Shown here: piece after piece, positions 855 through 33,575 of the stretch
Layout of the letters: the number at the start of each line of letters is the position of its first letter
Position numbering within the stretch: the first letter of the stretch is position 1
Source: Eubacteriales bacterium
GTDB taxonomy: Bacteria; Bacillota; Clostridia; Lachnospirales; Lachnospiraceae
NCBI GenBank assembly: GCA_030524785.1
Contig: JAUNFZ010000020.1
Span: 1-39,173 of the forward strand
Reading direction: 5' to 3'
DNA length: 39,173 bases
Notes under the pieces: model-generated
Databases searched by the model: none
Seen by the model: the letters and a program-made list of their open reading frames with translations, nothing else
Told to the model about the DNA's origin: nothing
Made by a program: the position numbers and the translations under genes

Positions 855-2267
855 TCAGCTCTCAACATATCCCTGATACACCTGCTGCATCACGCCTTCT
901 GTAACGGTAAACAGCTCTATCAGATGTTCTCCGCTCTGCATCTGTCCTTCCTCCAGATACAGCACATATCCAAAATCTGTTTCCTGCCCTTCCTGCTCCA
1001 AAGTAACCGGAAAAGCCTCGTAAAGCGCCGCCCCGTCCACGCGGACATAAATCTCGGTTTCCACGCTCATATAGGCTTCATCCACCGTTCCGCTAATTTT
1101 CGTAAACGCGCCTTCCGCCGTGATCTGGCAGTTTGTAAGATTGGCGCTATCCCGTGGAAGAATTTCCGCCCGCAAAGGCGCAAGATGCGCCTCGCCCGTC
1201 TGTACCACCGGAGGATTCTTCCTCATATCCGGCACAAAACGCTCAGCACGCTCCACAATCACCGTATCTGCCTGGCACGCCTGCATATCCCCAAGATAAT
1301 AGGGCACGCCCCTGGAAAATCTGGCGCTTCCAAACTCCTCGGCGACAAAGGGCAGCAGCGCATTTCCGAACGAATCGCGATACATCAGAAGGCTTCCCTG
1401 CTTTGCGTCATTCACCGTCTGAATCAGCGGATCAAAGGTGCTCTCGATCTCCTGCGTATATTCATAGGTAAACTCCGTATCATAATAAATTTCTTCTTCC
1501 GGGGTAACCGCCAGCGGATACAGCATCTTGTCAAGATCGCCCTCAAAATCTTCCTGCACCGTGTAGGAAGCTCCCTCATGGGAGGTGTGCGCCTTTCCCA
1601 GCATATCCAGCAGAAGGTCGGAAACCAGTGCCGCTCCTTTGTTGTTCCAGTGGGAATCCCGCAGATGGTACAGCGTCTCATCCCTTTGTGCAAAGAAAGC
1701 AAACAGATCTGCGTAATTTACGCCCTGCTTTAAAAGCATCTCCGCTATTTTCTCCCGGTTATGTTCATCCGCAATCTTTATCTTATAATAATAGGGCATA
1801 TTCTCCCCGTACAGCGTATTCTTGTTCGGCGCAATGGTAAACAGGAACTGCCCGCCCTGTTCCTCCACATAGGTCTGCATCATTTTCAGCGTATGCGCAA
1901 TATTATACGCCGCCCGGTCGCTCAGCACATTGCCGCCCAGATAGTCCTCCAGGGAATCCTTGTAATACAGCCAGCCGCCGGTGCCTTTTATCACACCCTC
2001 CGCCGTGGAAACACCCAGAAGCTTTCCGCGAAGCAGAGCGTCCGCCGTCACCATTTCCTGGCGGTATGCAAAATGATCCTCAAAATAAGTTCCCGCATCA
2101 GCAAGATAGTTGATGTTTAGCCCTTCCTCTGTGCGAAGCTTCGGCGCTTCCGCCAGCACTCGGTTCTCGCTGGATTCTGCCTCCCTGTACCACAATTTGC
2201 CCGCGAAGGGAAGCGCACAGGCGGATATCGTCAATATCAGATATAAAACCGTCCATAGTTTTTTCAT
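855..2267 (-). CDS. AlgX/DHHW-like SGNH protein for surface polysaccharide O-acetylation
   Basis: This 470-residue protein has an N-terminal signal anchor (about 5-22) followed by an extracellular domain. RDSHWNNKG places Asp204 and His206 as in the DxHW motif of AlgX/AlgJ/DHHW proteins, and MYRDSFG places a candidate nucleophile at Ser299. In that family these residues form an SGNH-type Ser-His-Asp site that moves acetyl groups onto an exported polysaccharide. The C-terminal region (about 360-470) looks beta-rich and may bind substrate. The gene begins 12 bp after the MBOAT stop, the usual partnership in which MBOAT moves the acyl group across the membrane and the SGNH protein transfers it. 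The family-level role is well supported; the acceptor polymer is unknown. Confidence 0.85.
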   Translation of the reverse strand: MKKLWTVLYLILTISACALPFAGKLWYREAESSENRVLAEAPKLRTEEGLNINYLADAGTYFEDHFAYRQEMVTADALLRGKLLGVSTAEGVIKGTGGWLYYKDSLEDYLGGNVLSDRAAYNIAHTLKMMQTYVEEQGGQFLFTIAPNKNTLYGENMPYYYKIKIADEHNREKIAEMLLKQGVNYADLFAFFAQRDETLYHLRDSHWNNKGAALVSDLLLDMLGKAHTSHEGASYTVQEDFEGDLDKMLYPLAVTPEEEIYYDTEFTYEYTQEIESTFDPLIQTVNDAKQGSLLMYRDSFGNALLPFVAEEFGSARFSRGVPYYLGDMQACQADTVIVERAERFVPDMRKNPPVVQTGEAHLAPLRAEILPRDSANLTNCQITAEGAFTKISGTVDEAYMSVETEIYVRVDGAALYEAFPVTLEQEGQETDFGYVLYLEEGQMQSGEHLIELFTVTEGVMQQVYQGYVES

Positions 2268-2279
2268 AAAGCGCCTCCT

Positions 2280-3671
2280 TTAAAAGCGGAAATAAATAAA
2301 GGGATTATACGTGCTGCCGGACAGGCTCAGCATACAGAGCACAAGCCCCGCAATGCTGCACAGCCATGCAGCCGTACGATAACCACGCTTCTTTTCCAGA
2401 TGTACTTTTACCGGCGAAGCCGCAATGCAGGCCGCAATAAACACCGCAATCCACAGCGGTGTCAGCTGCTGCACCGCCAGGCTGAGCCCCGGCGCCGAAA
2501 ATTCAAATCCGGTAAACATCCTGCTCACAAAGAAAAATCCCTGCGCCAGCGTATCCGCCCGAAAGATCACAAATCCCACCGTCACTACGAGAAGCGCATA
2601 AAGATGTCCGAAAAACCGGCCCACGCTGCCTATCTTACGCCGCTTTGGAAGAAATTCCTCCACCATCATAAAGAAACCGTGATAAAGTCCCCAGCACAGG
2701 AACGTTAAATTTGCTCCGTGCCAGATTCCCGTACACGCAAACACAATCCATTTATTTATAATCGTGCGTACGAGCCCTTTTCTGTTTCCGCCCAGCGGAA
2801 AATAGAGGTACTCCCGGAACCATCCTGACAGGGAAATATGCCATCTTCTCCAAAATTCTGTAATACTGCATGACACATAAGGATAGCAGAAATTCTCTTT
2901 GAACTCAAATCCAAACATCCTTCCCAGTCCCAGTGCCATATCGCTGTAGCCGCTGAAATCAAAATAAATCTGCAGCAGATAAGATACCGCCGCAATCCAT
3001 GCACTTAATATATTTATGTTTTCCGGCGCCGCTGCAAAAAGCGTGTCCACCGTAAGTCCCATAACGTTTGATATCAGTACTTTTTTGGATAATCCCGCAA
3101 TAAATCTGCGCATACCGAGAGCCGCGTTTTCCGCCGTCAGCCTGCGGCCGCCAATCTGCTCCTCAATATCGTGATACTTTACAATCGGCCCTGCAATAAG
3201 CTGCGGGAAAAAGGAGATATAGAGCAGCACTTTGCCCGGATTCTTCTGTGGGTTTGCATTGCCCCGGTACACGTCGATTACGTAGGACAGCGCCTGAAAG
3301 GTAAAGAACGAAATTCCTATGGGCAGAGCAATCTGCACGGCGGGAAGCGTTACCCATCCGGTACTGTTGACAAGCTCCACCAGAAATCCCGCATATTTGA
3401 ATACCACCAAAAGGCCGATATTTACGATAACAGCAAGAATAAGGGCCCATTTTCGTTTTCGGCCCTTATTGTTTACAGTTAATCCAAAAATATAATTCAG
3501 AAGAACGGAGGCCAGCATCAGCAATACATATACCGGCTCTCCGTAGGCATAAAACAAAAGACTTGCTATAATCAGCAGAATATTTTTTGTTCTGATGCCT
3601 GGCAAAATCCAGTGCAGTACAAACGTAATCGGAAGAAATACACATAAAAATGTGATTGAACTGAAAACCAC
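2280..3671 (-). CDS. MBOAT-family membrane O-acyltransferase (AlgI/DltB-like)
   Basis: This 463-residue protein has multiple hydrophobic segments. It carries the MBOAT signature EFWRRWHISLS, followed by WFREYLYFPLGGNRKG and then GIWHGA, which contains the conserved histidine at residue 318. Length and motif order match AlgI/PatA-type acyltransferases, which pass an acyl group, usually acetyl from acetyl-CoA, across the cytoplasmic membrane to an extracellular transferase. It lies between the wall-binding transglutaminase-like gene (24 bp upstream) and the AlgX-like gene (12 bp downstream), so the three are very probably one transcript. DltB is the closest alternative, but no dltA, dltC or dltD is present and the partner here is of AlgX type. 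Confidence 0.92.
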   Translation of the reverse strand: MVFSSITFLCVFLPITFVLHWILPGIRTKNILLIIASLLFYAYGEPVYVLLMLASVLLNYIFGLTVNNKGRKRKWALILAVIVNIGLLVVFKYAGFLVELVNSTGWVTLPAVQIALPIGISFFTFQALSYVIDVYRGNANPQKNPGKVLLYISFFPQLIAGPIVKYHDIEEQIGGRRLTAENAALGMRRFIAGLSKKVLISNVMGLTVDTLFAAAPENINILSAWIAAVSYLLQIYFDFSGYSDMALGLGRMFGFEFKENFCYPYVSCSITEFWRRWHISLSGWFREYLYFPLGGNRKGLVRTIINKWIVFACTGIWHGANLTFLCWGLYHGFFMMVEEFLPKRRKIGSVGRFFGHLYALLVVTVGFVIFRADTLAQGFFFVSRMFTGFEFSAPGLSLAVQQLTPLWIAVFIAACIAASPVKVHLEKKRGYRTAAWLCSIAGLVLCMLSLSGSTYNPFIYFRF

Positions 3672-3695
3672 TTGTTTTCCTCCCCTGCCAGCCGT

Positions 3696-5081
3696 TTACA
3701 GGCTGGTTACCGTATCATATTTTATATTTGCATAAAGCCAGCCGTAATAGGAGCTTGCCGGCTTGTAATAACATGTGCCGTTTCCATTATATACTTCCCG
3801 CTCCAGATCCGGGTCAAACACATACCATGTGCCGTTTATCTTCACCTCGCACCATCCGTGGGGCGTCCATGCGACATACGCTCCGGGTGTAGAACCCCAG
3901 CAAACGCGCACCGGGAGGTTCGTGGCCTTTTTCACCAGGCAGGCAAACGCCGCCGCATAGCTGTAGCAGTTGCCGCTTCCGCTGGTAAGCATATTGTAGC
4001 CCATCGTCTTATACCAGCCCGTATTTCCTGAGAAAGCCACCGTCCGGTAGGAGAACTGCCATGTGACATACTGGAATATTTTCTGCAGCTTCACATCCCT
4101 GCTGGAATTTGTGATTCCAAGCTGCTTGATGATGCTCGCGCACTTCTGATCCAGTGCGGAGGTCGCATTTTTCGTCTTGCTGGCGTCCAATACGCCTGTC
4201 GATTTAAAATAGTACTGCTTTGTGCCGATCGTTACCCATCCTGTCGCCATAACGCCGTTGGAGGCAAGATAGTACTTCTTTGATCCAATCGTCAGCCAGC
4301 CGGTATGCATCACGCCCTTTTTCGTCCCGCTGGGCGTAAAGTAGTACTTCTTTTTGCTGATCGTCTGCCAGCCGGTAAGCATCTGTCCTTTATTCTTTTT
4401 CGCTGTGCTGAAGTAGTATTTTTTCGTGCCGACGGTTTTCCAGCCGCTGTGCATTGTGCCGCCCTTATTGAAATAATAAGTAGCGCCGTTGATGGTCTTC
4501 ATCCCCGTCTGCATCACGCCTTTGCTGTTGAAATAATACTTCTTGCTTCCAATCTGCGTCAGGCCTGTGCGCATAATGCCCTGCTTGGAGCCGGTCTTTA
4601 CAAAATAATACTTTTTATTTCCCTGCGTCAGCCAGCCAATATACATCGCGCCGCTTTTCTTGTTGAAATAATACGTATTGCCGTTGACCTTCTGAAATCC
4701 GGTCTTCATCACGCCGTTTTTGTCAAAATAGTACTTCTTTTTGGAAATCGTCTGCAGGCCTGTATACATCACGCCTTTATTCTTTCCGCTCTTTGTGAAG
4801 TAATACTTTTTGCCGTTTTTCGTAAGCCATCCGGTGTACATTACACCTTTGCTTGCAAAGTAGTAACGCTTGCCCCCGATCGTCTTAAAAGTACTCGTAA
4901 GCTTTTTGCCATTTACATAATAGTACTTTTTCCCGCTTACCGTCTTCCAGCCCGTATATCCTGCTTTCTGGGCAGTCGCTGCTGCAGTCGTCTGCGCCGC
5001 AGCCGCCTGAATCGGCGCCCCGAGAGCAAGGCACAAAACCAACGCTGCCAACATACCTTTTATGCACTTCTTACCTCGCAT
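3696..5081 (-). CDS. Secreted wall-binding protein with C-terminal transglutaminase-like domain
   Basis: This protein of about 461 residues has a Sec signal peptide (RGKK, then a hydrophobic core ending AAAAQ). Twelve tandem repeats of about 20 residues follow, each carrying a KKYYF-type core and a G-W/L/M-x-T turn (about 40-300). They resemble the CW_binding_1 repeats that attach clostridial and streptococcal proteins to wall polymers. The C-terminal 150 residues form a transglutaminase-like domain with Cys372 (GNCYSYA), His408 (PHGWCEV) and Asp423 (VFDPD) in triad order, so a protease or amide-bond role is possible. A GTG at 5087 is in frame, but GGGAGG is only about 2-3 nt from it and about 8 nt from the ATG at 5081, so I chose 5081. 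It leads the surface operon. Confidence 0.88.
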   Translation of the reverse strand: MRGKKCIKGMLAALVLCLALGAPIQAAAAQTTAAATAQKAGYTGWKTVSGKKYYYVNGKKLTSTFKTIGGKRYYFASKGVMYTGWLTKNGKKYYFTKSGKNKGVMYTGLQTISKKKYYFDKNGVMKTGFQKVNGNTYYFNKKSGAMYIGWLTQGNKKYYFVKTGSKQGIMRTGLTQIGSKKYYFNSKGVMQTGMKTINGATYYFNKGGTMHSGWKTVGTKKYYFSTAKKNKGQMLTGWQTISKKKYYFTPSGTKKGVMHTGWLTIGSKKYYLASNGVMATGWVTIGTKQYYFKSTGVLDASKTKNATSALDQKCASIIKQLGITNSSRDVKLQKIFQYVTWQFSYRTVAFSGNTGWYKTMGYNMLTSGSGNCYSYAAAFACLVKKATNLPVRVCWGSTPGAYVAWTPHGWCEVKINGTWYVFDPDLEREVYNGNGTCYYKPASSYYGWLYANIKYDTVTSL

Positions 5082-5142
5082 ACTCACGTTCCCTCCCGCT
5101 TTCCTGATGCTTCAGTTTACCTCTGTTTTCATTCCCGGAACG

Positions 5143-5173
5143 CAAATACCCCCCCCCGAAATATTTTGCTCAA
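5143..5173 (-). promoter_or_regulatory. Possible promoter with a nine-G spacer tract
   Basis: On the minus strand, TTGAGC (5168-5173) and TATTTG (5143-5148) are separated by 19 bp, and that spacer contains nine consecutive G (5149-5157). The -35 matches four of six consensus bases and the -10 only three, so this is a weak promoter call. Another candidate lies further upstream near 5250-5280 (ATGACA, 17 bp, TAAGAA). The homopolymer is directly visible; its role in expression is inferred. Confidence 0.35.
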
Positions 5174-5332
5174 CGCATATTTTCCGGAAGGGATATTCAG
5201 TCCGTTTTTAAATTCTTTCATTTTTCGTAAACTTTTTGCATTACTTTCTTAATATTTTGTAAATATATTGTCATTGGTATTTTATCACTCCTCCATGCGC
5301 AATGCAAGCATTTTCATTAAATCAAATGGAAA

Positions 5333-5385
5333 AAACAAGCAAAAAGCGCCAGGGCAAGCGTTCTTTGTTTACCCCGGCACTTTTT
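5333..5385 (-). terminator. Intrinsic terminator after the Amt-PII gene
   Basis: On the minus strand AAAAAGTGCCGGGG pairs, with G-U wobbles, with CCCTGGCGCTTTTT. GCTTGTTTTTT follows. It lies about 40 bp after the amt stop. T-rich sequence on the other side could also allow some plus-strand termination. Confidence 0.75.
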
Positions 5386-5423
5386 GTTTTCTTTTATCGT
5401 TTTATGGAGTGTGATAGCGTCTG

Positions 5424-7220
5424 TTATTCTACATCCTGCAGAGCGTCAAAGTTTTCTTCGCCCGTTCTGATCTTTACAACCTTATCCACATTGTATACGA
5501 AGATCTTGCCGTCTCCGATATGACCTGTGTAAAGGGCTTTCTTTGCGGATTCGATGACAGCTTCCACAGAAATCTTGCTGATAACCACTTCCATCTTTAC
5601 CTTTGGAAGCAGCGTCACATCCATCTCTACTCCACGGTACATCTCTCCGGCGCCTTTCTGCACGCCGCAGCCCATTACCTGCGTTACCGTCATTCCGGTA
5701 ACTCCCAGATCGTTCATTGCTTTCTTCACTTTCTCGTAGCGGGAGAGCTTGGTAATGATTACCACCTTGTAAATACCCGTAGGCGATACCGCAGTCTCCG
5801 GTGCCTTTACAACCTTGACCGCCGCGTCTTTCTGTACTTCAGAAGCCGTGCTGTAGTCATCATTTCCAAGATTCGTGTTCTCATTCACATCCATTGTCAT
5901 GGTATTGGCAATATCCATGATGCTGAATCCGGCATATGCAGAGGGAAGACCATGTTCGCAGGAATCCAGACCTACAATTTCTTCTTCCTCCGTTACACGA
6001 AGACCGAAAATCGCTTTGATAATCAGGAACGCAATCGTAATCGTTACCGCTGTCCAGGCAATCGTCGCAAACATACCTACAAACTGAATACCGAGCTGCT
6101 TAAAGCCGCCTCCGTAAAAGAGTCCTGCGCCTGCAATCTGGTTTGCGCCAAAATTCACGCCGTCTCCGATTCCTCTTGCAAAAGCCGGAGCCGTTTCTGT
6201 TGCGAACAGTCCGACAGCGATGGTTCCCCAGATACCGTTCAGGCAGTGTACCGCAACCGCACCCACCGGGTCGTCAATATGCAGCTTATTATCCAGGAAC
6301 CATACGCCGAATACTACCAGTACGCCGGCAACCGCACCGATGACAATCGCACCGAAGGCGTCGCATACGTCGCAGGGAGCAGTAATCGCTACCAGACCTG
6401 CCAGCGAAGCGTTCAGACACATGGACACATCGGGCTTGCCGTATTTAATCCAGGTGAATACCATACATACCACTGTTGCCACGGAGGGAGCAATCGTAGT
6501 GGTTAAAAATACTGAGCCAAGCTCCGCAATAGAGGTCGCCGCAGCGCCGTTAAATCCGTACCAGCCCAGCCACAGGATAAACACGCCGAGGCATCCCAGC
6601 GGAAGGTTGTGTCCGGGAAATGCGTTTACTTTCACAATCTTTCCTGATTTGTCTTTCGTAAATTTTCCGATACGGGGCCCAAGGAGATAAGCTCCGATCA
6701 GGGCGCTGATACCGCCTACCATGTGGATACAGTTGGAACCTGCAAAATCATGGAAGCCCATCTGCGCCAGCCAGCCTCCGCCCCAGGTCCAGTGCGCCTC
6801 TATCGGATAGATCACCGCAGAGATGATTGCAGAGTACACACAGTAAGAAAGGAACTTTGTTCTCTCTGCCATAGCACCGGACACGATGGTCGCGGTAGTT
6901 GCACAGAATACCAGGTTGAATACAAAATTGGACCAGTCAAAATTTGCATAGTCGGTAAAAATGTCAAAACCTGGTTTTCCGATCAGGCCCACCATATCTT
7001 CTCCCAGAAGAAGGCTGAAGCCAATCAGAATGAACACAACCGTACCGATACAGAAGTCCATCAGGTTTTTCATTAGAATGTTTCCTGTGTTTTTTGCTCT
7101 GGTAAATCCTGCCTCTACCATAGCGAACCCTGCCTGCATCCAGAACACCAGGGCTGCTCCGATCAGGAACCAGACACCATACACTTCGCCGTTGATGGCA
7201 TTGATAATTTCCTGCGTCAT
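5424..7220 (-). CDS. amt: Ammonium channel fused to a C-terminal P-II domain
   Basis: This 598-residue protein joins an Amt/MEP/Rh ammonium channel (about 1-430, eleven hydrophobic segments expected) to a GlnB/GlnK-like domain (about 490-598). The twin pore histidines are His166 (NCIHMVGG) and His325 (VAVHCLNG). The P-II part keeps GITGM-like (GVTGMTVTQV), a T-loop QKGAGEMYRG, LPKVKMEVV and GHIGDGKIFV. The position equivalent to the uridylylated Tyr51 of E. coli GlnB is Met533, so control by uridylylation is unlikely; 2-oxoglutarate/ATP binding is still possible. The start at 7220 has GAGGAGG about 9 nt upstream; an in-frame ATG at 7283 lies inside the leader terminator and lacks a binding site. 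The gene lies downstream of glutamine synthetase, so ammonium uptake and assimilation sit together. Confidence 0.93.
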   Translation of the reverse strand: MTQEIINAINGEVYGVWFLIGAALVFWMQAGFAMVEAGFTRAKNTGNILMKNLMDFCIGTVVFILIGFSLLLGEDMVGLIGKPGFDIFTDYANFDWSNFVFNLVFCATTATIVSGAMAERTKFLSYCVYSAIISAVIYPIEAHWTWGGGWLAQMGFHDFAGSNCIHMVGGISALIGAYLLGPRIGKFTKDKSGKIVKVNAFPGHNLPLGCLGVFILWLGWYGFNGAAATSIAELGSVFLTTTIAPSVATVVCMVFTWIKYGKPDVSMCLNASLAGLVAITAPCDVCDAFGAIVIGAVAGVLVVFGVWFLDNKLHIDDPVGAVAVHCLNGIWGTIAVGLFATETAPAFARGIGDGVNFGANQIAGAGLFYGGGFKQLGIQFVGMFATIAWTAVTITIAFLIIKAIFGLRVTEEEEIVGLDSCEHGLPSAYAGFSIMDIANTMTMDVNENTNLGNDDYSTASEVQKDAAVKVVKAPETAVSPTGIYKVVIITKLSRYEKVKKAMNDLGVTGMTVTQVMGCGVQKGAGEMYRGVEMDVTLLPKVKMEVVISKISVEAVIESAKKALYTGHIGDGKIFVYNVDKVVKIRTGEENFDALQDVE

Positions 7221-7244
7221 AAATTTTCTCCTCCTCTTTCGGCT

Positions 7245-7294
7245 CATATAAAAAAGAAGATAACCGCCGCTCCTCATCGGCAATTATCTTCTTT
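7245..7294 (-). terminator. Terminator-like hairpin in the amt leader
   Basis: On the minus strand AAAGAAGATAATTGCCG pairs with CGGCGGTTATCTTCTTT, giving 17 pairs including two G-T pairs, around the loop ATGAGGAG. A run of six T ends the hairpin. It sits after the amt promoter and before the amt ribosome binding site. It could therefore act as an attenuator, or as the terminator of transcripts arriving from glutamine synthetase. Confidence 0.7.
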
Positions 7295-7323
7295 GATAAC
7301 TGAACCTTTTTTGTTTCATATCA

Positions 7324-7360
7324 CAAAAGGCGCTCCTGCTTTTTTGCAGGAACGCCTTTG
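7324..7360 (-). promoter_or_regulatory. Upstream hairpin in the amt leader
   Basis: On the minus strand CAAAGGCG(T)TCCTGC pairs with GCAGGA(G)CGCCTTTTG around a loop of six A. No clean T tract follows, so it looks more like a leader structure, or a weak terminator after glutamine synthetase, than a strong terminator. Confidence 0.55.
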
Positions 7361-21860: not shown

Positions 21861-23009
21861 TTATGCCTGCGCTCCGTCAGAACCCATATCTGCCTGTCCG
21901 TCTCCCGCATCAGCAGCCGCACCGTCGTCAGCCATGCTGACTCCATCATCCATGCCGGCTCCATCGTCCACGGCGCCCTCATCAGCCGCGCCGCCGTCTT
22001 CTGCATCAGCAACCGCGCCGTCTTCTGCTCCTTCAGCGCCGTCTCCGGTGTCTGCACCGCTCTCCGTATAATCGTAAACGGCAGCGGCTGTCACGCCCGT
22101 CGTATTCACGCCGTCCAGCGTTCCTGTGTACTCAACCGTAATATAGCTGCCTGCCATGATGCCGTTTGAATAGTAATACGTGGCATTGGAAGTATCAAAG
22201 GACAGTTCCGTGCCGTCGTCCGCCAGAATCGTGATGGTAGTCATGCTGCAGTCTTCCACCGTACCGTTCACATAAGAATATTCTCCCTGGGCAGAGGGAC
22301 CCGGCTTTACCGTGGCGTCGCCGCTGGCGGGATCATTGTCCGTAACCGACGTCGCCGGAACCAGATCCGGTCCGTAAATATCGCCTACGTAGTCGACCGT
22401 CACATAATTGCCCTGCTTCATTCCATTGACAAGATTTACGCTGGCCTCATACAGCGAGAAATAATAGGATTCGCCGTCGTCCGCCACAATCACGATTCTG
22501 TCGGTATTTAAGTCTTCAATCGTTCCTCCGATAGAGCCGGCTCCCGCATCGGGATCTGCCACTTCATTTTCTGTCTGAAGTTCTCCCTCCGTCACCGGGG
22601 TTTCTCCCGCATCCAGATCTTTTACCATCAAAACCCGGGCTGCCGAAGTATCTGTGCCGCTGATCGTTCCCTTATAAAGAATCGTAACGTTATTGCCTGT
22701 CTGAATACCGCTTGAAAGCTGTATGTCTGCACCCGCAATCGAAAATTCCAGTTCCTTGCCCCGCTCCGTCTGAATCGTAAGCGTATCTGTTCCCGAAGCC
22801 TTCACGAGTCCCTTAAGACTTCTTGTCCGATTCATGCTGTCCTCTTTTTCCGTCTCTGTGGGCGCCTCTGTAACCGGTTCTGTCTGCTCTGTGACTGCCT
22901 CCGTTGTGGGCGGCTCCGTAGGAGCTTCCGTCTCTTTTTGCGCCCCCTTACAGCCCGACAGCATTGCTGCGGCTGACAGTACCAGCAAACATAATGTGAA
23001 TTTTTTCAT
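21861..23009 (-). CDS. Lipoprotein with three internal beta-rich repeats
   Basis: This 382-residue protein has a lipoprotein signal with lipobox LSGC, giving Cys20. A Thr/Glu/Pro linker (21-60) follows, then three homologous units at about 65-130, 160-224 and 246-312. Each unit has G-T/L-V-x-D/A, a strand pair with D-D-G-x-x-x-x-F, a hydrophobic-G-I/M-x-x-G-x-x-V/I-T-V core and a final Y-x-G-T/D. The C-terminal 65 residues are almost wholly Ala, Asp, Gly and Glu. I do not recognise the family. The start at 23009 has TAGGAGG about 8 nt upstream; the open frame begins 38 codons earlier, inside the promoter. It is a single gene after dapB with its own promoter. Confidence 0.85.
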   Translation of the reverse strand: MKKFTLCLLVLSAAAMLSGCKGAQKETEAPTEPPTTEAVTEQTEPVTEAPTETEKEDSMNRTRSLKGLVKASGTDTLTIQTERGKELEFSIAGADIQLSSGIQTGNNVTILYKGTISGTDTSAARVLMVKDLDAGETPVTEGELQTENEVADPDAGAGSIGGTIEDLNTDRIVIVADDGESYYFSLYEASVNLVNGMKQGNYVTVDYVGDIYGPDLVPATSVTDNDPASGDATVKPGPSAQGEYSYVNGTVEDCSMTTITILADDGTELSFDTSNATYYYSNGIMAGSYITVEYTGTLDGVNTTGVTAAAVYDYTESGADTGDGAEGAEDGAVADAEDGGAADEGAVDDGAGMDDGVSMADDGAAADAGDGQADMGSDGAQA

Positions 23010-23048
23010 CTTTTTTCCTCCTATTTTTCTATATCCCCTTTTGCGCAT

Positions 23049-23078
23049 AGTATATCTTTTTTTCACCGGAAAAGTCAA
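23049..23078 (-). promoter_or_regulatory. Promoter of the repeat lipoprotein gene
   Basis: The minus strand has TTGACT (23073-23078), an 18-bp spacer and TATACT (23049-23054), about 40 bp before the start codon. Confidence 0.7.
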
Positions 23079-23126
23079 CGAATTTCCATAAATATTCAGA
23101 TATACCCTGAAAAAATTAAGCAATTG

Positions 23127-26631: not shown

Positions 26632-28467
26632 ATGAATCGGGAAAATATAAGAAATATTGCAATTATCGCCCATGTAGACCATGGTAAGACGACGCTGGTA
26701 GACGAGCTTTTAAAACAGAGCGGCGTATTCCGCGAAAATCAGGAAGTAGCGGAGCGTGTGATGGACTCCAACGATATCGAGCGGGAGCGCGGTATTACCA
26801 TCCTCTCCAAGAATACAGCCGTATATTATAAAGATTACAAAATCAACATTGTAGATACGCCGGGCCACGCCGATTTCGGAGGCGAGGTAGAGCGCGTCCT
26901 GAAGATGGTGGACGGCGTAATCCTCGTGGTAGACGCCTTTGAGGGTTCCATGCCCCAGACAAAATTTGTTCTCCGCAAAGCCCTGGATCTTGATCTTCCG
27001 GTCATTGTCTGCATCAACAAGATCGACCGCCCGGAGGCAAGGCCCGCCGAGGTAATTGACGAAATTCTGGAACTGTTTATTGATCTGGACGCTTCCGACG
27101 AACAGCTCGACTGCCCCTTTGTGTACGCTTCTGCAAAGGCAGGCTACGCTGTTCTTGAGCTCTCCGACGAACACCTCGATATGACGCCGCTGTTTGAGAC
27201 GATCATCAACTATATTCCTGCCCCCACGGGAGATGAAAGCGCTCCCCTGCAGGTATTGATCAGCACCATCGACTATAACGAATATGTGGGCCGCATCGGC
27301 GTGGGCAAGGTGGACAACGGCTCCATCCGGGTAAATCAGGAAGTTGTGCTGGTAAACCACCACGAACCGGATAAGCAGAAAAAAGTAAAAATCAGCAAGC
27401 TCTATGAGTTTGACGGCCTGAATAAAGTAGATGTGACGGAGGCCGGCACAGGCTCCATCGTAGCCATCTCCGGCATTGCGGACCTTCATATCGGCGATAC
27501 GCTGTGCTCCCCGGAGCACGTGGAGGCGATTCCCTTCCAGAAAATCTCCGAGCCCACCATCGCCATGCATTTTATGGTAAACGACAGCCCCCTGGCCGGC
27601 CAGGAAGGCAAGTACGTGACCTCGCGCCATCTGCGGGAACGCCTGATGCGCGAACTGAATACGGACGTCAGTCTCCGGGTAGAAGAAACAGAGGATATGG
27701 ATACCTTTAAGGTTTCCGGCCGCGGAGAACTTCATCTGTCCGTTTTGATTGAAAATATGCGCCGGGAGGGCTATGAATTTGCCGTCAGCAAGGCGGAAGT
27801 AATCTATAAAACAGACGACCGCGGCAGAAAGCTGGAGCCGATGGAGCTGGCCTACGTGGACGTCCCGGAGGAATTTTCCGGAACTGTGATCAACAAACTC
27901 AGCACCAGAAAAGGCGAACTGCAGGGTATGAGCCAGGCAAGCGGCGGCTACACCCGGCTGGAATTTTCAATCCCCTCCAGGGGCCTTATCGGCTACCGCG
28001 GAGAATTTCTGACAGACACAAAGGGAAACGGTATCCTGAATACCGTCTACGACGGTTATGCCCCCTACAAGGGAGAAATCCAGTACCGCAAACAGGGTTC
28101 CCTGATCGCTTTTGAATCCGGCGAGTCTGTAACCTACGGTCTGTTTTCCGCTCAGGAGCGCGGCACGCTGTTTATCGGCCCCGGCGAAAAAGTATATTCC
28201 GGTATGGTAATCGGACAAAATGGAAAAACAGACGATATCGAACTGAACGTCTGCAAGACAAAACATCTGACAAACACCAGGGCTTCCGGCTCCGACGACG
28301 CCCTGAAGCTGACGACGCCAAAGATTTTAAGCCTGGAGGAGGCCCTGGAGTTTATTGATACTGATGAACTTCTGGAAGTGACGCCGAAAAGCCTGCGCAT
28401 CCGCAAAAAGATCCTTGATCCCACCATGCGCAAACGGGCGGCGTTTAACAAAAAGAACAATCCGTAA
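26632..28467 (+). CDS. typA: Translational GTPase TypA/BipA
   Basis: This 611-residue GTPase binds the ribosome and acts in stress response and 50S assembly. G motifs are HVDHGKTT, RERGITI, DTPGHADF, NKIDRP and SAKAG. The EF-G-like domains III and V and the TypA C-terminal domain (GTLFIGPGEKVYSGM, KHLTNTRASGSD) follow. I chose the ATG at 26632 with an AGAGGG site; an open frame 37 codons longer runs through the promoter. Its 3' end overlaps the 3' end of the opposing ATP-grasp gene by 23 bp, so transcripts of both strands should collide there. Confidence 0.97.
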   Translation: MNRENIRNIAIIAHVDHGKTTLVDELLKQSGVFRENQEVAERVMDSNDIERERGITILSKNTAVYYKDYKINIVDTPGHADFGGEVERVLKMVDGVILVVDAFEGSMPQTKFVLRKALDLDLPVIVCINKIDRPEARPAEVIDEILELFIDLDASDEQLDCPFVYASAKAGYAVLELSDEHLDMTPLFETIINYIPAPTGDESAPLQVLISTIDYNEYVGRIGVGKVDNGSIRVNQEVVLVNHHEPDKQKKVKISKLYEFDGLNKVDVTEAGTGSIVAISGIADLHIGDTLCSPEHVEAIPFQKISEPTIAMHFMVNDSPLAGQEGKYVTSRHLRERLMRELNTDVSLRVEETEDMDTFKVSGRGELHLSVLIENMRREGYEFAVSKAEVIYKTDDRGRKLEPMELAYVDVPEEFSGTVINKLSTRKGELQGMSQASGGYTRLEFSIPSRGLIGYRGEFLTDTKGNGILNTVYDGYAPYKGEIQYRKQGSLIAFESGESVTYGLFSAQERGTLFIGPGEKVYSGMVIGQNGKTDDIELNVCKTKHLTNTRASGSDDALKLTTPKILSLEEALEFIDTDELLEVTPKSLRIRKKILDPTMRKRAAFNKKNNP

Positions 28468-29617
28468 AAAGACCGCTGTCCTCAGCGAGAATCTCTTTCA
28501 TCTCCTGCATCGTATCCGTCTGCAGGATATAATATCCGAACCGGCTGCCGCTGTCCACCACGGCGTGGCTGCCGGGGATATCTGTAAGCCTTGTCTCCCG
28601 CAGGCAGTCCGGGTAATTCTTCTTTACTTTTTCAAGATAATCCATATCACGTTTTTCCATGATAAAGCGAATCGCCGAGCATTTATGAAGGGGTTCGGAA
28701 CAAAAAACAGGGCTGTGCCCAAAGGCCGTGTCGATTACCATCCTCACATAGTCCTCCCCGGCAGAGAGCGAAACCAGATGAGAGCCGATACAGTCGCCCC
28801 CCATGCGGGAGCCGATCTCGATAATCCGCACCCTTCCCCGGCCGTCAATCCGAAATTCCGCGTGGGAAGCGCCGCTTTTCACCCCAAGGGCGTCCAGCCC
28901 GCGAAAGACCATATCCACCGCGCTCTCCCGCTGTTTTTCCGAAATGGGCGCCGGTTCCAGATGGCCCACTTCGATAAAATGAGGCTCGCCGGTGGTAAAC
29001 TTTTTTGTGACCGCCAGGCAGGTGTGTCTCCCCTCAAAGCTGATAGTCTCCATGCTGTACTCCTGCCCCTCAATATATCCTTCCACGATTGCCTGCTTTT
29101 CAAAGGACTGTTCTATCGCCTCGCGAATTGCCGACGCCAGTTGAGAAGGCCTCTCCACCTTGGTAATCGCCCTGCTGCCGGAACGGTCCGTAGGCTTTAC
29201 AATCACAGGATAAGCCAGTTCCTCCCGGGAAATATCTTCCGCGCACGCCACCTTCTTAAAAAACGGCACCGGAATCCCCGCCTGCAAAAAAGCGCTGCGC
29301 ATGGCCGCTTTATTGGTGGAGCGAAACACACACTCCGGGCTGTTTCCCGGAAGCCCAAGCTCCTTTGCCAGATAAGCTACGGTCACATTTGCAAGGTCAG
29401 AACCGATTGTCGCCACCGCATCCGGACAGATTTCCCTGCATTTTTCCAAAATCCTTTCCTTTTCCGTGATACTGATCTCATAAAAGGCGTCTGCCTTCGC
29501 CGCTCCTGCATCTTTTCTGCTCCAGGAAAACACATGGGTCTCATATCCCATCTCGCGTGCTTTTACAATCAGCGGAAGCTGAAATTCATTCGCGCCGATA
29601 ATCACTAATTTCTTCAT
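28445..29617 (-). CDS. ATP-grasp ligase, last gene of the Sir2/SMR/GT operon
   Basis: This 390-residue protein begins KKLVIIGANEFQLPLI, a preATP-grasp nucleotide-type fold. An ATP-grasp core follows (VIVKPTDRSGSR, IVEGYIEGQEYSME and the metal-binding end RIIEIGSRMGGD). The family joins a carboxylate to an amine or other nucleophile through an acyl phosphate; PurK, PurT and PylC are distant relatives. Its substrate cannot be read from the sequence. It starts 32 bp inside the glycosyltransferase gene, implying coupled translation, and converges on typA with a 23-bp overlap. It is only distantly related to the ATP-grasp protein at 31271, so the two probably act on different substrates. Confidence 0.88.
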   Translation of the reverse strand: MKKLVIIGANEFQLPLIVKAREMGYETHVFSWSRKDAGAAKADAFYEISITEKERILEKCREICPDAVATIGSDLANVTVAYLAKELGLPGNSPECVFRSTNKAAMRSAFLQAGIPVPFFKKVACAEDISREELAYPVIVKPTDRSGSRAITKVERPSQLASAIREAIEQSFEKQAIVEGYIEGQEYSMETISFEGRHTCLAVTKKFTTGEPHFIEVGHLEPAPISEKQRESAVDMVFRGLDALGVKSGASHAEFRIDGRGRVRIIEIGSRMGGDCIGSHLVSLSAGEDYVRMVIDTAFGHSPVFCSEPLHKCSAIRFIMEKRDMDYLEKVKKNYPDCLRETRLTDIPGSHAVVDSGSRFGYYILQTDTMQEMKEILAEDSGLFTDCSFC

Positions 29618-30560
29618 ACGTTTCTTTGCCTTCCGTCTCTTTTATATTGATAGTATCACGCACGACATACTGAGGCGTCTTGCTGATGTTTAAAATACAT
29701 TTTCCTATATACTCCCCGATAATTCCAAGCATCAGGAACAAAAATCCAAACAGAATCAGCATGGTGCACATCAATGAAGGCCAGCCGATAGCCACATCAG
29801 GCAGCACGATTTTCTGCGCAATCACAACCACCGCCCCGATAAATCCCGCAATAGAACACAGCGCTCCCAGACAAGTCGCCAGCCGCAGAGGAATTACAGT
29901 GTAATTCATAAAAGCCATAAACAGACGCAGGGATTTCTTGAAGTTATAATTGGACTGCCCCACTTCCCTGGAAAAATGCTCAATCTCGATATTGGCAATA
30001 TTTCCCGTGGTGCGGTAAAAGAGCACCTGCAGGTACAGGTTGTAGCTGTCGTACCGGATCATTTCATCCCGGACATACTTTCTGCAGCACCAGTAATTGC
30101 TCGCCTCCAGCCCTTTGGGCCGTTCTACCATATGCCACATAATAAAAGCCGCAATCTTGCTGACCAGATTCTTCATAAAATTAAACTTTCGCTTCCGGTA
30201 CACGCCGAACACCACGTCGTAGCCTTCGTTCATCTTCTCAATAAACGCCGGTATCTGGGAAGGATGCGTCTGCATATCGTCGTCCATTCCCATAATATAA
30301 TCTCCCTCTGCCGCCCGCAGGCCCGCCATAATCGCATTGTGCTGTCCAAAGTTTTTTGCCAGATTAATCCCCTTCACATTCGGGTATTTCTCCGCCAGTT
30401 TCCAGATTTCCTGGCATGTCTTGTCCCTGGAGAAATCGTTCACCAGCACAAACTCACATTCCATCCCCTCAATTTTGTCAATGACTTCCATGCTTGTTTC
30501 CACGACCTTGCCGATCGTCTGCTCTGAGTTATAACAGGGAATCACAATAGACAAAAGCAT
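29586..30560 (-). CDS. ArnC/GtrB/DPM1-like glycosyltransferase, family GT2
   Basis: This 324-residue protein has an N-terminal GT-A domain (LSIVIPCYNSE, VNDFSRDKT, metal site GMDDDMQTHP, and YWCCRKYVRDE) and two C-terminal membrane segments (about 228-250 and 262-285). This layout matches enzymes that move a sugar from a nucleotide sugar to undecaprenyl phosphate, such as ArnC and GtrB. It sits between two SMR-like transporters and an ATP-grasp ligase, starting 21 bp after the second transporter. It probably makes a membrane-bound sugar phosphate for export. The sugar is unknown. Confidence 0.9.
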   Translation of the reverse strand: MLLSIVIPCYNSEQTIGKVVETSMEVIDKIEGMECEFVLVNDFSRDKTCQEIWKLAEKYPNVKGINLAKNFGQHNAIMAGLRAAEGDYIMGMDDDMQTHPSQIPAFIEKMNEGYDVVFGVYRKRKFNFMKNLVSKIAAFIMWHMVERPKGLEASNYWCCRKYVRDEMIRYDSYNLYLQVLFYRTTGNIANIEIEHFSREVGQSNYNFKKSLRLFMAFMNYTVIPLRLATCLGALCSIAGFIGAVVVIAQKIVLPDVAIGWPSLMCTMLILFGFLFLMLGIIGEYIGKCILNISKTPQYVVRDTINIKETEGKETYEEISDYRRE

Positions 30561-30581
30561 ACTTTTTTCCTCTTTTCTCCT

Positions 30582-30926
30582 TTAAATCAGGTAAATAACG
30601 ACTCCGGCAAAAATTACCGCAATCCCCAGAATTTTTCTTTTGGAGGCCTTCTCCTTCAAAAACACACAGCCCATGACGAACACAAAAAAATACCCGATGG
30701 ACTCGATCACAGTTGACCAGGACAGCGGAATCTTCTTCAGTGCAATCATGGTAACCAGCGTGGACAATAGAAGCAATCCGTAGCCGGCGATCACGTAGCC
30801 GTTCATATATTCTCTTATTTTTGAAGGATATGTTTTATTTGCCGATATCTTCAGAAGCATCTGCGCCAGAGAAGCCATAAATACCGAGCATACCATAATT
30901 CCAGCGTAAAGCCATACACTATTCAT
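30582..30926 (-). CDS. SMR/EamA-like four-helix transporter subunit, second of a pair
   Basis: This 114-residue protein has about four hydrophobic segments and typical small multidrug resistance/ArnF-like sequence (SLAQMLLKIS, KKIPLSWSTVIESIGYFFV, FLKEKASKRKILGIAVIFAGVVIYL). It overlaps the first transporter gene by 8 bp, as expected for a heterodimer made together. By position next to an ArnC-like glycosyltransferase, the pair may flip a polyprenyl-linked sugar, as ArnE/ArnF do. Drug efflux is the alternative. Confidence 0.82.
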   Translation of the reverse strand: MNSVWLYAGIMVCSVFMASLAQMLLKISANKTYPSKIREYMNGYVIAGYGLLLLSTLVTMIALKKIPLSWSTVIESIGYFFVFVMGCVFLKEKASKRKILGIAVIFAGVVIYLI

Positions 30927-31281
30927 CTGCCGTCACCACCATATAAATGCCAATAAAAATAACAATCGCCCCCAAAATCATATTCCAGGTAATTTTTTCC
31001 TGGAAGAAAATGGCTCCCCAGATCATCCCCCAGGCCAGTCCCACGGGTTTATTGGAATAAGCTACGGACAGAGGCAGATACTTTAAAATCTGCTGCCACA
31101 CAACGGCGTACAGAAGCATAATCAGCAAAACCCCCGCATAGTAGACCATCCAGGGCACAGACAGAAATTCCTCCGCTGCGGCTTTCTTTGAAAGCACGCC
31201 GCTTATAGAGCTCACCATCAGGCTTAAATGCAGCACAAAAAGCACCCAGGGCAGCTTTTTCTTTTTTTCGTTACTGTTCAT
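30919..31281 (-). CDS. SMR/EamA-like four-helix transporter subunit, first of a pair
   Basis: This 120-residue protein has a short basic N-terminus (NEKKKKLP) and four hydrophobic segments. The family-like core is LSVAYSNKPVGLAWGMIWGAIFFQEKITW. It overlaps both neighbours: 11 bp with the ATP-grasp gene upstream and 8 bp with the second transporter. Its sequence differs clearly from its partner, consistent with an asymmetric heterodimer. GAGGT lies about 11 nt before the ATG. Confidence 0.82.
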   Translation of the reverse strand: MNSNEKKKKLPWVLFVLHLSLMVSSISGVLSKKAAAEEFLSVPWMVYYAGVLLIMLLYAVVWQQILKYLPLSVAYSNKPVGLAWGMIWGAIFFQEKITWNMILGAIVIFIGIYMVVTADE

Positions 31282-32461
31282 CTTTGGTCTTTACCTCAAT
31301 TCTTTCCAGCACTTCTTTCAGAAAACGCCCGCAGTTTTCGGGGCTATTGCCCTTTACAATTACCTGGCCAATCCGGTCCCTGCCATTTGTCATGGGGCAC
31401 ACAGTATCCCCCGGCGCTATGTTAAAGGACAAATCCACCAGATTTTCTCCCACTGCCGTACCGGGAATAATTTCTTCCACAATTCCTTCTTTTTTCGCCT
31501 CCAGAAGACGCACTTCGCTGCACACCCGGGGCGGCTGCTGAAAATATGAAGATACTTCCTCCCCCATGCTCAGGCGCACGATCATCTCGTAGTAATTCAC
31601 TCCAAAGTACATTCCCACCTGCTGGGACAGTCCGGTGGCACCGGCTCTGGCCGTGCCTTCGATTATGTAAATCTCTCCGTCTTTCAGCATCATATCAAAA
31701 TTCATGGGGCAATTGTCTGTGCCAAGCGCCTGCACTGCAAGCTCCACCTGTTTTCGCACCTTTTCCGCAAAGGGCTGGCCTTTCACCCAGGGCACCGCAT
31801 GGCCCATCGGAAACGGCGGATTTCCCTCATGCAAAAGGGTGCTCACCGGAAGCACGTACACCAGACGTCCGTTTTCCACCATGGCTTCCACACCAAAAAT
31901 TGTCCCCTCCAGAAATTCTTCTACAATACAGTAATCCTGCTTTGTGGCAACCATCGTCTGCGGGTAAAAACGCAGCGCGTCTTCCCGCGTATCACACCGG
32001 AAAATACCCCGGCTTCCCATCTGGTCCACCGCTTTGATCATCACCGGAAAACACATCTTCTCAAGGACTTCCTTCAGCTCCTCCAGACTACGGACCTGAA
32101 CAAAAGCCGCCGTGTTCACTCCCGCTTTCACAAAGGCTTTCTTCATCTCATACTTATTTGTACATTTCTGCACCGCTTCCCAGGATGGGCCGCAAAGCCC
32201 CATCTGCGTGGCTGTATAGCCCTGGCTGCGAAGCCCCACATCCATACTGCAGGTTGCAATACCCGACACCTGATGCTTCCTGGCGGCCTCCAAAACCTCC
32301 GCCGGATTCGTAATGTCTGCATAGCACACTTCGTCCGCAACAGAAAAACCCGGATAATTTCCGGGAATACTCGTCACCACCGTACTATAGCCCAAACGCT
32401 TTGCCGCGTCAATCAGCGGCAAAAGCGAATAGGAAGCTCCTAAAATCATAATCTTTTTCAT
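31271..32461 (-). CDS. ATP-grasp ligase, second gene of the Sir2/SMR/GT operon
   Basis: This 396-residue protein starts KKIMILGASYSLLPLI and resembles carbamoyl-phosphate-synthase-type ATP-grasp proteins. MIKAVDQMGSRGI is the nucleotide loop, YCIVEEFLEGTIFG the hinge, and NFDMMLKDGEIYIIEGTARAGATG the metal-binding end. An extra C-terminal domain (about 325-390) follows, typical of amino-acid-ligase-like members. It starts 17 bp after the Sir2-like gene with a GAGAGGAA ribosome binding site. Its substrate is unknown; ligation of an amino acid or peptide to a sugar or lipid precursor is a reasonable guess from the neighbours. Confidence 0.86.
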   Translation of the reverse strand: MKKIMILGASYSLLPLIDAAKRLGYSTVVTSIPGNYPGFSVADEVCYADITNPAEVLEAARKHQVSGIATCSMDVGLRSQGYTATQMGLCGPSWEAVQKCTNKYEMKKAFVKAGVNTAAFVQVRSLEELKEVLEKMCFPVMIKAVDQMGSRGIFRCDTREDALRFYPQTMVATKQDYCIVEEFLEGTIFGVEAMVENGRLVYVLPVSTLLHEGNPPFPMGHAVPWVKGQPFAEKVRKQVELAVQALGTDNCPMNFDMMLKDGEIYIIEGTARAGATGLSQQVGMYFGVNYYEMIVRLSMGEEVSSYFQQPPRVCSEVRLLEAKKEGIVEEIIPGTAVGENLVDLSFNIAPGDTVCPMTNGRDRIGQVIVKGNSPENCGRFLKEVLERIEVKTKDEQ

Positions 32462-32478
32462 TGACCGTAATTCCTCTC

Positions 32479-33210
32479 TTATAAAAGCTGCGGCACCAGC
32501 TCATTCAAATCCCCGTGAATCACATAATCCGCATTTTCATCGCCGTGCTCCTGCCGGTCGGTGATGAGAATCAGCTTATCGCCCGTATAATATGACAGAT
32601 TATTCTCGCAAAATTCCTGGTCAAGGCGCACGCCCAGCACCAGAAGCACATCCGCCTTTGAAATCTCATTCGCCACCTTTGTCATCACCGCATTGTCGAT
32701 CATTTCTCCGTACAGACGGATGCCCGGGCGAATGGGAACCATGCATTTTTCACAGATCGGCACTTTCTTTGCGTCTTTTAAATACTGCTTGGAATATTCT
32801 CTGCCGCATCTGGGACAGTGATTTTTTTCCACAGAGCCGTGGGGCTGAATGATATTTTTGCATCCCGCCTCCGCGCAGAGGCCGTAGATTTCTCTGGAAA
32901 TAATGGCCTTCAGCACGCCCTTTTCCTCCAGCCGCGCCAGCGTTTTATAGGCCGGCCCCGGTTTCATATCCTGGGACAGCACTTCTTTTTTATAAAATTT
33001 GTAAAAGGGCTCCGTCCGGGTATTATAAAATGCGCTGCTGAACATTTCCTCCGGAGAATAGCCGTATTCCGCCTCAATGTCGTACGCCCTCTCCTGATCC
33101 CGCAGGCTCATATGTCCGCATCCCCGCTGCATACCGCTGCCGCTGATGGCGACAAGGTACTTGCTTTTCTCAACGATTTCCTTTACCGTACTTATCCTCG
33201 CTTCCGCCAT
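32479..33210 (-). CDS. Divergent Sir2-family protein, first gene of the operon
   Basis: This 243-residue protein keeps sirtuin landmarks: a histidine in QPHGS (His124), a zinc ribbon CPRC...CEKC (Cys132, 135, 153, 156), and a C-terminal Rossmann end (LLVLGVRLD, LILITDRQ). The usual GAG-x-S loop reads SGSGMQRG. The usual NID-GLH segment reads EIYGLC, so the Asn and Asp that hold NAD in deacetylases are absent. The ATG at 33210 has an AAGGGG site; a GTG ten codons upstream lacks one. It has a promoter of its own and is followed after 17 bp by an ATP-grasp gene. Normal deacetylase activity is doubtful. Confidence 0.85.
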   Translation of the reverse strand: MAEARISTVKEIVEKSKYLVAISGSGMQRGCGHMSLRDQERAYDIEAEYGYSPEEMFSSAFYNTRTEPFYKFYKKEVLSQDMKPGPAYKTLARLEEKGVLKAIISREIYGLCAEAGCKNIIQPHGSVEKNHCPRCGREYSKQYLKDAKKVPICEKCMVPIRPGIRLYGEMIDNAVMTKVANEISKADVLLVLGVRLDQEFCENNLSYYTGDKLILITDRQEHGDENADYVIHGDLNELVPQLL

Positions 33211-33259: not shown

Positions 33260-33288
33260 AATGTACCATCCGGCGCGTTTTTCGTCAA
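33260..33288 (-). promoter_or_regulatory. Candidate promoter of the Sir2/ATP-grasp/SMR/GT operon
   Basis: The minus strand has TTGACG (33283-33288), a 17-bp spacer and TACATT (33260-33265), about 55 bp before the Sir2-like start. The -10 is moderate. Confidence 0.5.
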
Positions 33289-33515
33289 TGATTTTGCGCA
33301 AATTTCCACGCTATCTTAAAGTTGCTCTCCGATACGCGAAATAATTTTATGCAGTCCTCCGGCGTCAGTATGCCTTCGATTTCTTTTTGCCGTTCCTCGG
33401 GGATGACCGCCTTTACGCTGTCCTCAAAAGCGATCTGCGGAAAAAACCACGAAAACGCCGCCGCACCCGCCAGCGCCGCCAGGCAGCAGCGCAGATATCT
33501 CTTATATTTCTCCAA
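33285..33515 (-). CDS. Small membrane-anchored protein of unknown function
   Basis: This protein of about 76 residues starts at a TTG at 33515, with GGGAGG about 7 nt upstream; the open frame continues to a GTG at 33533 that overlaps this site. It has one N-terminal hydrophobic segment (RCCLAALAGAAAFSWFF) and a charged C-terminal part with PEERQKEIEGIL and an ITPEDC-like stretch. I do not recognise it. It follows the response regulator by about 60 bp on the same strand, so it may be part of that signalling operon or controlled by it. Confidence 0.6.
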   Translation of the reverse strand: MEKYKRYLRCCLAALAGAAAFSWFFPQIAFEDSVKAVIPEERQKEIEGILTPEDCIKLFRVSESNFKIAWKFAQNH

Positions 33516-33575
33516 TAAAAAACCTCCCAACACCCGGTTGATGTATAGAGTGTTGACAGGTTTTCTTTTTCCTAT

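Follow-up and report, generated by a model that had tools for sequence, protein, structure and literature searches.

Do the six genes of a compact clostridial operon, which sets a sirtuin-like gene beside two ATP-grasp ligases, two small membrane proteins and an ArnC-like glycosyltransferase, form one pathway, and what would that pathway make? The operon lies in a 39,173-nucleotide stretch (the window: bases 1-39173 of contig C100, GenBank JAUNFZ010000020.1) of the draft genome of a Eubacteriales bacterium of the Lachnospiraceae (GCA_030524785.1; 2.75 Mb, 114 contigs). Its open reading frames (ORFs), all on the minus strand, run from 33210 to 28445 in the order SIR-AG1-SMRa-SMRb-GT-AG2 (Table 1). 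A sequence-only reading had taken all six for a single pathway that makes and exports a polyprenyl-linked sugar carrying a group added by the ATP-grasps. Part of that proposal stands: the five genes AG1-SMRa-SMRb-GT-AG2 belong together, and the linkage of the sirtuin is not conserved. We consider it probable that the five serve as a lipid-carrier sugar module, comparable in its working to ArnC and ArnE/F in the Arn pathway, within a multi-component wall glycosylation system, and that the sirtuin is a resident of the site where such cassettes are exchanged.

The family names given from the letters alone (Sir2-like, ATP-grasp, SMR-like, ArnC-like) agree with Pfam and NCBIfam. GT matches Pfam Glycos_transf_2; its best NCBIfam models are ArnC (164.9 bits) and PgfS (162 bits), with scores far under their cut-offs (529 bits for the ArnC equivalog NF007986, 500 for PgfS). 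The best solved relatives of its profile in the PDB are ArnC (9hwj, 1.8e-62) and the GtrB-type protein sll0501 (5ekp, 1e-58), and it is assigned by profile as a predicted GT-A-type polyprenyl-phosphate sugar synthase. SMRa and SMRb match Pfam EamA at 29.5 and 28.7 bits, just above the cut-off of 28.2; in NCBIfam SMRb scores 35.4 bits with ArnF and 22.4 with ArnE, and SMRa 20.2 and 19.3, all under the cut-offs (ArnE 92, ArnF 99). Pfam ATP-grasp families match both AG1 and AG2, and AG1 additionally carries LAL_C2. In profile searches of the PDB both are closest to L-amino acid ligases, 4dim aside (AG2 to 3vot at 1.1e-43), and structural alignments of AG1 to such ligases give the same fold over the full length at 17-19% identity. 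Fold and profile thus place AG1 and AG2 as putative ligases of the L-amino-acid-ligase type.

The grouping of the five genes is carried by their recurrence. AG1 was searched in 299 genomes of the family and in named genome contigs, 80 loci being kept from the latter; matches of at least 200 BLAST bits, filtered at 97% AG1 identity, gave 65 non-redundant AG1 loci, window included. Loci L051 and L219 look like one contig (both 16,939 long, with the same gene order), and only L051, which is the same contig as genome G303, is among the 65. Neighbours were scored within 6 kb of AG1 at BLAST thresholds of 150 bits for GT, 300 for RffA, 45 for SMR and 110 for AG2-like proteins, with a GT threshold of 100 bits for the AG2-anchored set, the comparison loci and joint counts. 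A GT was found at 56 of the 65 loci, an RffA-like 4-aminosugar transaminase at 27, SMRa and SMRb at 26 each, a YfhO-type GT-C gene at 21, a PALP gene at 15 and an AG2-like gene at 12. GT adjoins 24 of the 26 SMR pairs. AG2, which has a match at 1e-85 in 24 of the 299 family genomes, behaves similarly as its own anchor: 19 of the 24 have a GT nearby, 14 have RffA and 12 the SMR pair, with RffA scored absent at locus L231, where a truncated copy (203 aa, 68%) falls below threshold.

As a comparison, 40 more distant ATP-grasp loci were scored in the same way, and have a GT in three, an SMR pair in two and RffA in one (Fisher p for RffA, 5e-7 for the AG2 set and 3e-6 for the AG1 set). The 40 include L071, L077, L078 and L079, grouped by eye with related loci; three of these four have GT-type genes, and the other 36 loci score zero for every feature. 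AG1, GT, the SMR pair and AG2 are thus linked more often than such genes are at the distant loci. The sequence-only reading would have been given up had these genes been scattered in related genomes; AG1, GT, the SMR pair and AG2 are not, and recur together in other genera. Judging by the linkage data, 4DIM, an Anaerococcus prevotii structure that bears the name of a purine enzyme ('phosphoribosylglycinamide synthetase'), may carry a name unsuited to its family.

Two further sets of loci were seen in these searches. The window's genome has a second locus with AG1 (37%), GT (44%) and YfhO (L131, contig C54 of genome G000, 2420-7326), adjoined by a Wzx-like gene. An AG1 and AG2-like pair also occurs in Bacteroidota (L060, Parabacteroides; L066, Butyricimonas), where no ArnC-like GT or SMR pair was found within 6 kb, L060 being cut close to AG1 on one side.

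Which sugar the module would handle is indicated by the transaminase near it in relatives, a DegT-family protein (Pfam) that resembles WecE/RffA. In other genera the sugar genes are often within 6 kb of the module, while in this genus sugar synthesis is apart from it. The gut commensal Anaerobutyricum hallii DSM 3353 (L045) has RffA-GT-AG1 homologues. Contig C75 of the window's genome carries one close RffA copy, which shares 65% identity with its L050 counterpart, and the genome gives one further match, weak and partial; the C75 protein matches the solved WecE-type transaminase 4piw at E 2e-154 (517 bits). At locus L116 the gene order is AG2-like (30%), AG1 fused to PALP, SMRa, SMRb, GT, RffA, two GT2-type genes and WbaP, and C75 has RffA, two GT2-type genes and WbaP in that same order. 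A YfhO-family gene adjoins RffA on C75, and RmlB is on the same contig. The genome has five YfhO genes; no GT-C transferase was recognised within the window. Proteins with the working label 'GTC', such as those at L038 (9859-11556) and L221 (6100-7860), have no Pfam match and are not claimed as GT-C enzymes. Each of eight genomes of the genus has one RffA match at 1e-80, which in the single-contig genome G299 lies about 1 Mb from the sirtuin site.

The proposed route would begin with RmlB and RffA, encoded elsewhere, making a dTDP-4-amino-4,6-dideoxyhexose, probably dTDP-Fuc4N to judge by homology to WecE. At the expense of ATP, AG1 and AG2 would then couple the 4-amine to one or two amino acids or to an acid of similar kind; a sugar amine is the predicted acceptor because the partner genes of the ligases are glycan genes. 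Formylation precedes ArnC in the Arn pathway, and ligation is placed before lipid charging by that analogy. GT would transfer the sugar onto undecaprenyl phosphate, a step for which its family argues strongly, an SMRa/SMRb heterodimer would flip the lipid-linked sugar, and a YfhO-type GT-C enzyme, as linkage in relatives suggests, would add it to an exported wall polysaccharide. We infer the amide nature of the bond and the final acceptor. The earlier suggestion that a polyprenyl-phosphate sugar is probably made and flipped, with the ATP-grasps taking part, is supported by the recurrence in other genera, by the ArnC/GtrB relationship of GT and by an SMR pair that lacks the membrane glutamate of drug-type SMR proteins; the linked RffA adds to it a likely sugar and a likely acceptor amine. 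Exchange of cassettes at the sirtuin site would let the surface modification differ between related species.

That exchange can be followed within the genus. Sirtuin orthologues (63-77%) are found in four of seven other genomes, the remaining three having only 34-36% matches. In all five genomes that have the sirtuin, it and a small ORF, sm82 (36-50% identical in the four others and next to the sirtuin), stand beside a glycosylation cassette, and the cassettes differ. The G299 cassette has AG1 at 64%, GT at 81%, SMR proteins at 70-73% and an extra WbqC gene; that of G303 has AG1 at 37%, GT at 52% and SMR proteins at 30-38%, in changed order and orientation. In G304 a distant ATP-grasp (24.2 bits, Pfam cut-off 27), a GT2 and two EamA proteins lie on the response regulator (RR) side of sm82. 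Between sm82 and the sirtuin, G302 carries a GT2, a short-chain dehydrogenase and a protein that matches no Pfam family; neither an ATP-grasp nor an SMR pair was recognised at that site. The window, G302 and G303 have TypA here, and the flanks fetched for G299 and G304 do not show it.

Between the window and L051 the flanking proteins TypA, SSB, DapA, RR, histidine kinase (HK) and MetK are 81-95% identical and one further flanking ORF 62%, against 30-52% for the cassette proteins, 69% for the sirtuin and 45% for sm82. The AG1 tree puts the window together with G299 and L031 and places G303 apart from them; a single AG1 clade of window, G299 and G303 is rejected in a quick tree (p-AU 0.0004). 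This is replacement at the site rather than vertical divergence. A search of 20 RR-HK flank regions (G121 from this genus and 19, several short, from other genera) found the TypA-cassette-SIR order in none, and the RR-HK flank was rejected as a general site of the family; the site is known only from this genus. At L192, in another genus, a 38% sirtuin and a 75-residue ORF lie on the far side of HK.

Several points weigh against the module and exchange as described. AG1, an AG2-like gene, GT and both SMR genes stand together at only 6 of the 65 loci, window included, and we therefore take AG1 with GT as the core and the SMR pair and AG2 as frequent partners. The sequence-only reading placed a pair of ATP-grasps in no system of this kind; both families do recur as partners, yet the two of them together with GT and the SMR pair are this rare. 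No RffA was found within 6 kb at 38 of the 65 loci, and both RffA and YfhO are outside the window; the link of RffA to the operon in this genus rests on relatives. Less than 6 kb is available on one side at 31 of the 65 loci, which makes the neighbour counts lower bounds. The comparison loci come mostly from other genera or phyla, where RffA may be rarer, and part of the linkage contrast may reflect gene content. A Mantel test of pairwise distances, which speaks for the module, couples AG1 to GT (r 0.87, n=54, 0 of 2000 permutations) and gives similar values when an SMR gene is one of the pair (r 0.80-0.91, 23 loci); shared ancestry also enters into this correlation. The same-site test uses three rows of a quick tree in which the window and G299 do group and only G303 is apart.

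An undecaprenyl-phosphate sugar could be made while the ATP-grasps, as mere neighbours, produce a free dipeptide or modified amino acid for another use. The nearest named relatives of AG1 and AG2 are L-amino acid ligases, among them the dipeptide ligase BacD, and in L002, L007, L008 and L033 an ATP-grasp is fused in one frame to a PALP enzyme like D-cysteine desulfhydrase/ACC deaminase, which suggests amino acid metabolism. The window's own genome gave 0 matches to the PALP enzyme at E 1e-3, in a search without positive control. We regard a free product as unlikely, since AG1 and AG2, each as anchor, accompany RffA, SMR pairs and GT.

It is a little less likely that the ATP-grasps load the amino-sugar with something other than an amino acid, such as a hydroxy acid or a dicarboxylic acid. 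Anthrose-like sugars carry acyl groups in this way, and within 6 kb of AG1 there are genes labelled PaaK-like at 17 of the 65 loci (a working label, with no Pfam match), WbqC-family genes at 6 and hexapeptide acyltransferase-like genes at 4; for WbqC, no function turned up among the literature matches listed. These genes all lie outside the window operon, and the sequence and structural neighbours of AG1 and AG2 are amino acid ligases.

That all six genes form one pathway, with the sirtuin as a deacylase in the place that ArnD holds in Arn, seems improbable. The sirtuin is first in the operon, just before AG1, and has a cassette beside it in every genome of the genus that carries it. Among AG1 loci it is near in 2 of 65, the window and L051, both of this genus, and L051 has it on the other strand from GT and AG1; among the matches listed, judged by eye, no other genome has a sirtuin near an AG1 orthologue, the closest being about 66 kb away in G250. 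The window protein has a SIR2 domain and the SIR2 fold, with GSG and SREIY at the NAD site, where sirtuins usually have motifs of GAG and TQNID type. In 31 aligned relatives, chosen by score, TQNID is found in none and GAG in one, the HG histidine is kept in 27 and the four zinc cysteines in all 31. Across the family, sirtuin-like proteins (L151-L180 and window 32479-33210) have altered NAD-site motifs and keep the zinc cysteines. As a pathway enzyme the sirtuin was rejected on linkage, and with it that part of the sequence-only reading. Because it stays while the neighbouring cassette changes, it looks like a resident of a variable chromosomal place; its cassette neighbour at all five copies may leave room for a regulatory or accessory role.

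In 17 aligned rows of each SMR subunit the first-helix stretch, with helix limits set by eye, is without glutamate throughout (17/17 for SMRa and for SMRb); an aspartate is found there in one SMRa and five SMRb rows, all at the edge except that of L126 SMRb. SMRa residue 75, which may correspond to the tyrosine switch of helix 3, is tyrosine in 12 of the 17 rows and phenylalanine in the other 5. PMC9574504, in the part available, describes the central glutamate as essential to the drug, guanidinium and polyamine subtypes and conserved among them. An ordinary drug or guanidinium exporter that is in the operon by chance, towards which weak profile matches to EmrE and the EbrA/EbrB NCBIfam models point, is highly improbable given the missing glutamate and the GT beside nearly all SMR pairs at AG1 loci. 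The firm grouping with drug-efflux SMR proteins that would have counted against the sequence-only reading is therefore not seen for this pair.

Table 1. Coordinates of the operon genes and adjoining features in the window
Label	Feature	Position	Strand	Remark
SIR	sirtuin-like protein, 243 aa, first ORF of the operon	32479..33210	-	SIR2 97 bits (Pfam)
AG1	ATP-grasp ligase with LAL_C2 domain, 396 aa	31271..32461	-	
SMRa	small SMR/EamA-like membrane protein, 120 aa	30919..31281	-	
SMRb	small SMR/EamA-like membrane protein, 114 aa; nearest NCBIfam model ArnF, below cut-off	30582..30926	-	
GT	ArnC/GtrB-like polyprenyl-phosphate glycosyltransferase, 324 aa	29586..30560	-	
AG2	second ATP-grasp ligase (ATP-grasp_4), 390 aa	28445..29617	-	
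sm82	small ORF, adjoins SIR in the genus	33285..33533	-	no Pfam match at E 0.01
Promoter-like site	TTGACG-17-TACATT, TG before the second hexamer	33260..33288	-	consensus match only

The six-gene order and tight spacing described earlier are confirmed: gaps of 17 bp (SIR-AG1) and 21 bp (SMRb-GT), and overlaps of 11 bp (AG1/SMRa), 8 bp (SMRa/SMRb) and 32 bp (GT/AG2). A convergent TypA gene overlaps the 3' end of AG2 by 23 bp, and on the other side of the operon are sm82 (by eye, one membrane helix and a short tail), RR, HK and MetK. One promoter common to all six genes is plausible. The promoter-like match sits 50 nt before the sirtuin ATG; the scan gave 17 sites against 8.1 expected in shuffles, and promoter and terminator scans alike, at about twice the shuffled count, are not taken as proof. 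Elsewhere in the window (all minus strand) are a 420-residue ORF (21861-23123) without Pfam match at E 0.001 and 62% identical in the syntenic L051, a single ORF that joins an ammonium transporter to a P-II regulatory domain (5424-7283), and AlgX-like, MBOAT and choline-binding/transglutaminase genes in a row (855-5087), which look like a surface O-acylation set.

Among known systems, the module is like the Arn pathway (ArnB, ArnA, ArnC, ArnD, ArnE/F, ArnT) in its predicted 4-amino-sugar, ArnC-kind GT, two-subunit SMR candidate flippase and proposed final GT-C transferase, with a proposed parallel in the acyl group that would be set on the amine before lipid charging. It differs in a WecE-kind dTDP-hexose transaminase in place of ArnB, in ATP-grasp ligases in place of a formyltransferase, in a predicted Gram-positive wall glycan rather than lipid A as target, and in scores under the ArnC, ArnE and ArnF cut-offs; because the equivalog cut-offs failed, we do not file it as Arn. 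The L-amino acid ligases BacD/YwfE, BL00235 and RizA share the full-length fold, and LAL_C2 with AG1; low identity and glycan partner genes set the module's ligases apart from them.

ArnE/F is described as a glycolipid flippase in the available part of PMC9574504. Multi-component transmembrane glycosylation by CsbB-GtcA-YfhO and its relatives uses, in the portion of PMC8035078 at hand, a flippase of GtrA or Wzx type. Like these Gram-positive systems, the module as proposed would combine a GT-A polyprenyl-phosphate sugar synthase, a flippase and a YfhO GT-C enzyme; unlike them as described there, its candidate flippase is a two-gene SMR/EamA pair, an amino-sugar and ATP-grasps are added, and the GT-C gene is outside the window. 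ATP-grasp ligases in surface glycan clusters have been noted before (PMC4000134, and a general statement in PMC4431377, both as excerpted). The excerpt of PMC4000134 predicts aminoacyl ligases of this fold in modified surface-polysaccharide clusters, with CA_C2189 near CA_C2195, and proposes that a neighbouring protein moves a peptide or glutamine onto an amino sugar by transacylation. That cluster resembles ours in having an ATP-grasp among surface glycan genes; it differs in holding an N-acetylneuraminic acid synthase, and an SMR pair and ArnC-like GT are not named in the excerpt. The recurrent combination of RffA, ATP-grasp, ArnC-like GT, SMR pair and YfhO, together with its exchange at one place, seems to be new. 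Among the literature matches listed, where most subscription papers are outside coverage, no paper treats ATP-grasp ligases with an ArnC-like GT and an SMR pair.

More tentatively, gut Lachnospiraceae may have a widespread Gram-positive counterpart of Arn, in which ATP-grasps load amino acids or dipeptides on Fuc4N before lipid charging and flipping, and in which ligase-flippase-GT cassettes are swapped at one place with the sugar genes fixed elsewhere, so that related species could change the displayed amino acid by swapping one cassette. If the module works as proposed, two ATP-grasp families, including the one that has 4DIM as its solved structure, would gain a function, and common gut bacteria would be expected to display an aminoacylated surface sugar. 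At the exchange site nature has set up a comparison, one genus with similar flanks and a different cassette, and aminoacyl surface groups could alter charge, phage adsorption and immune recognition.

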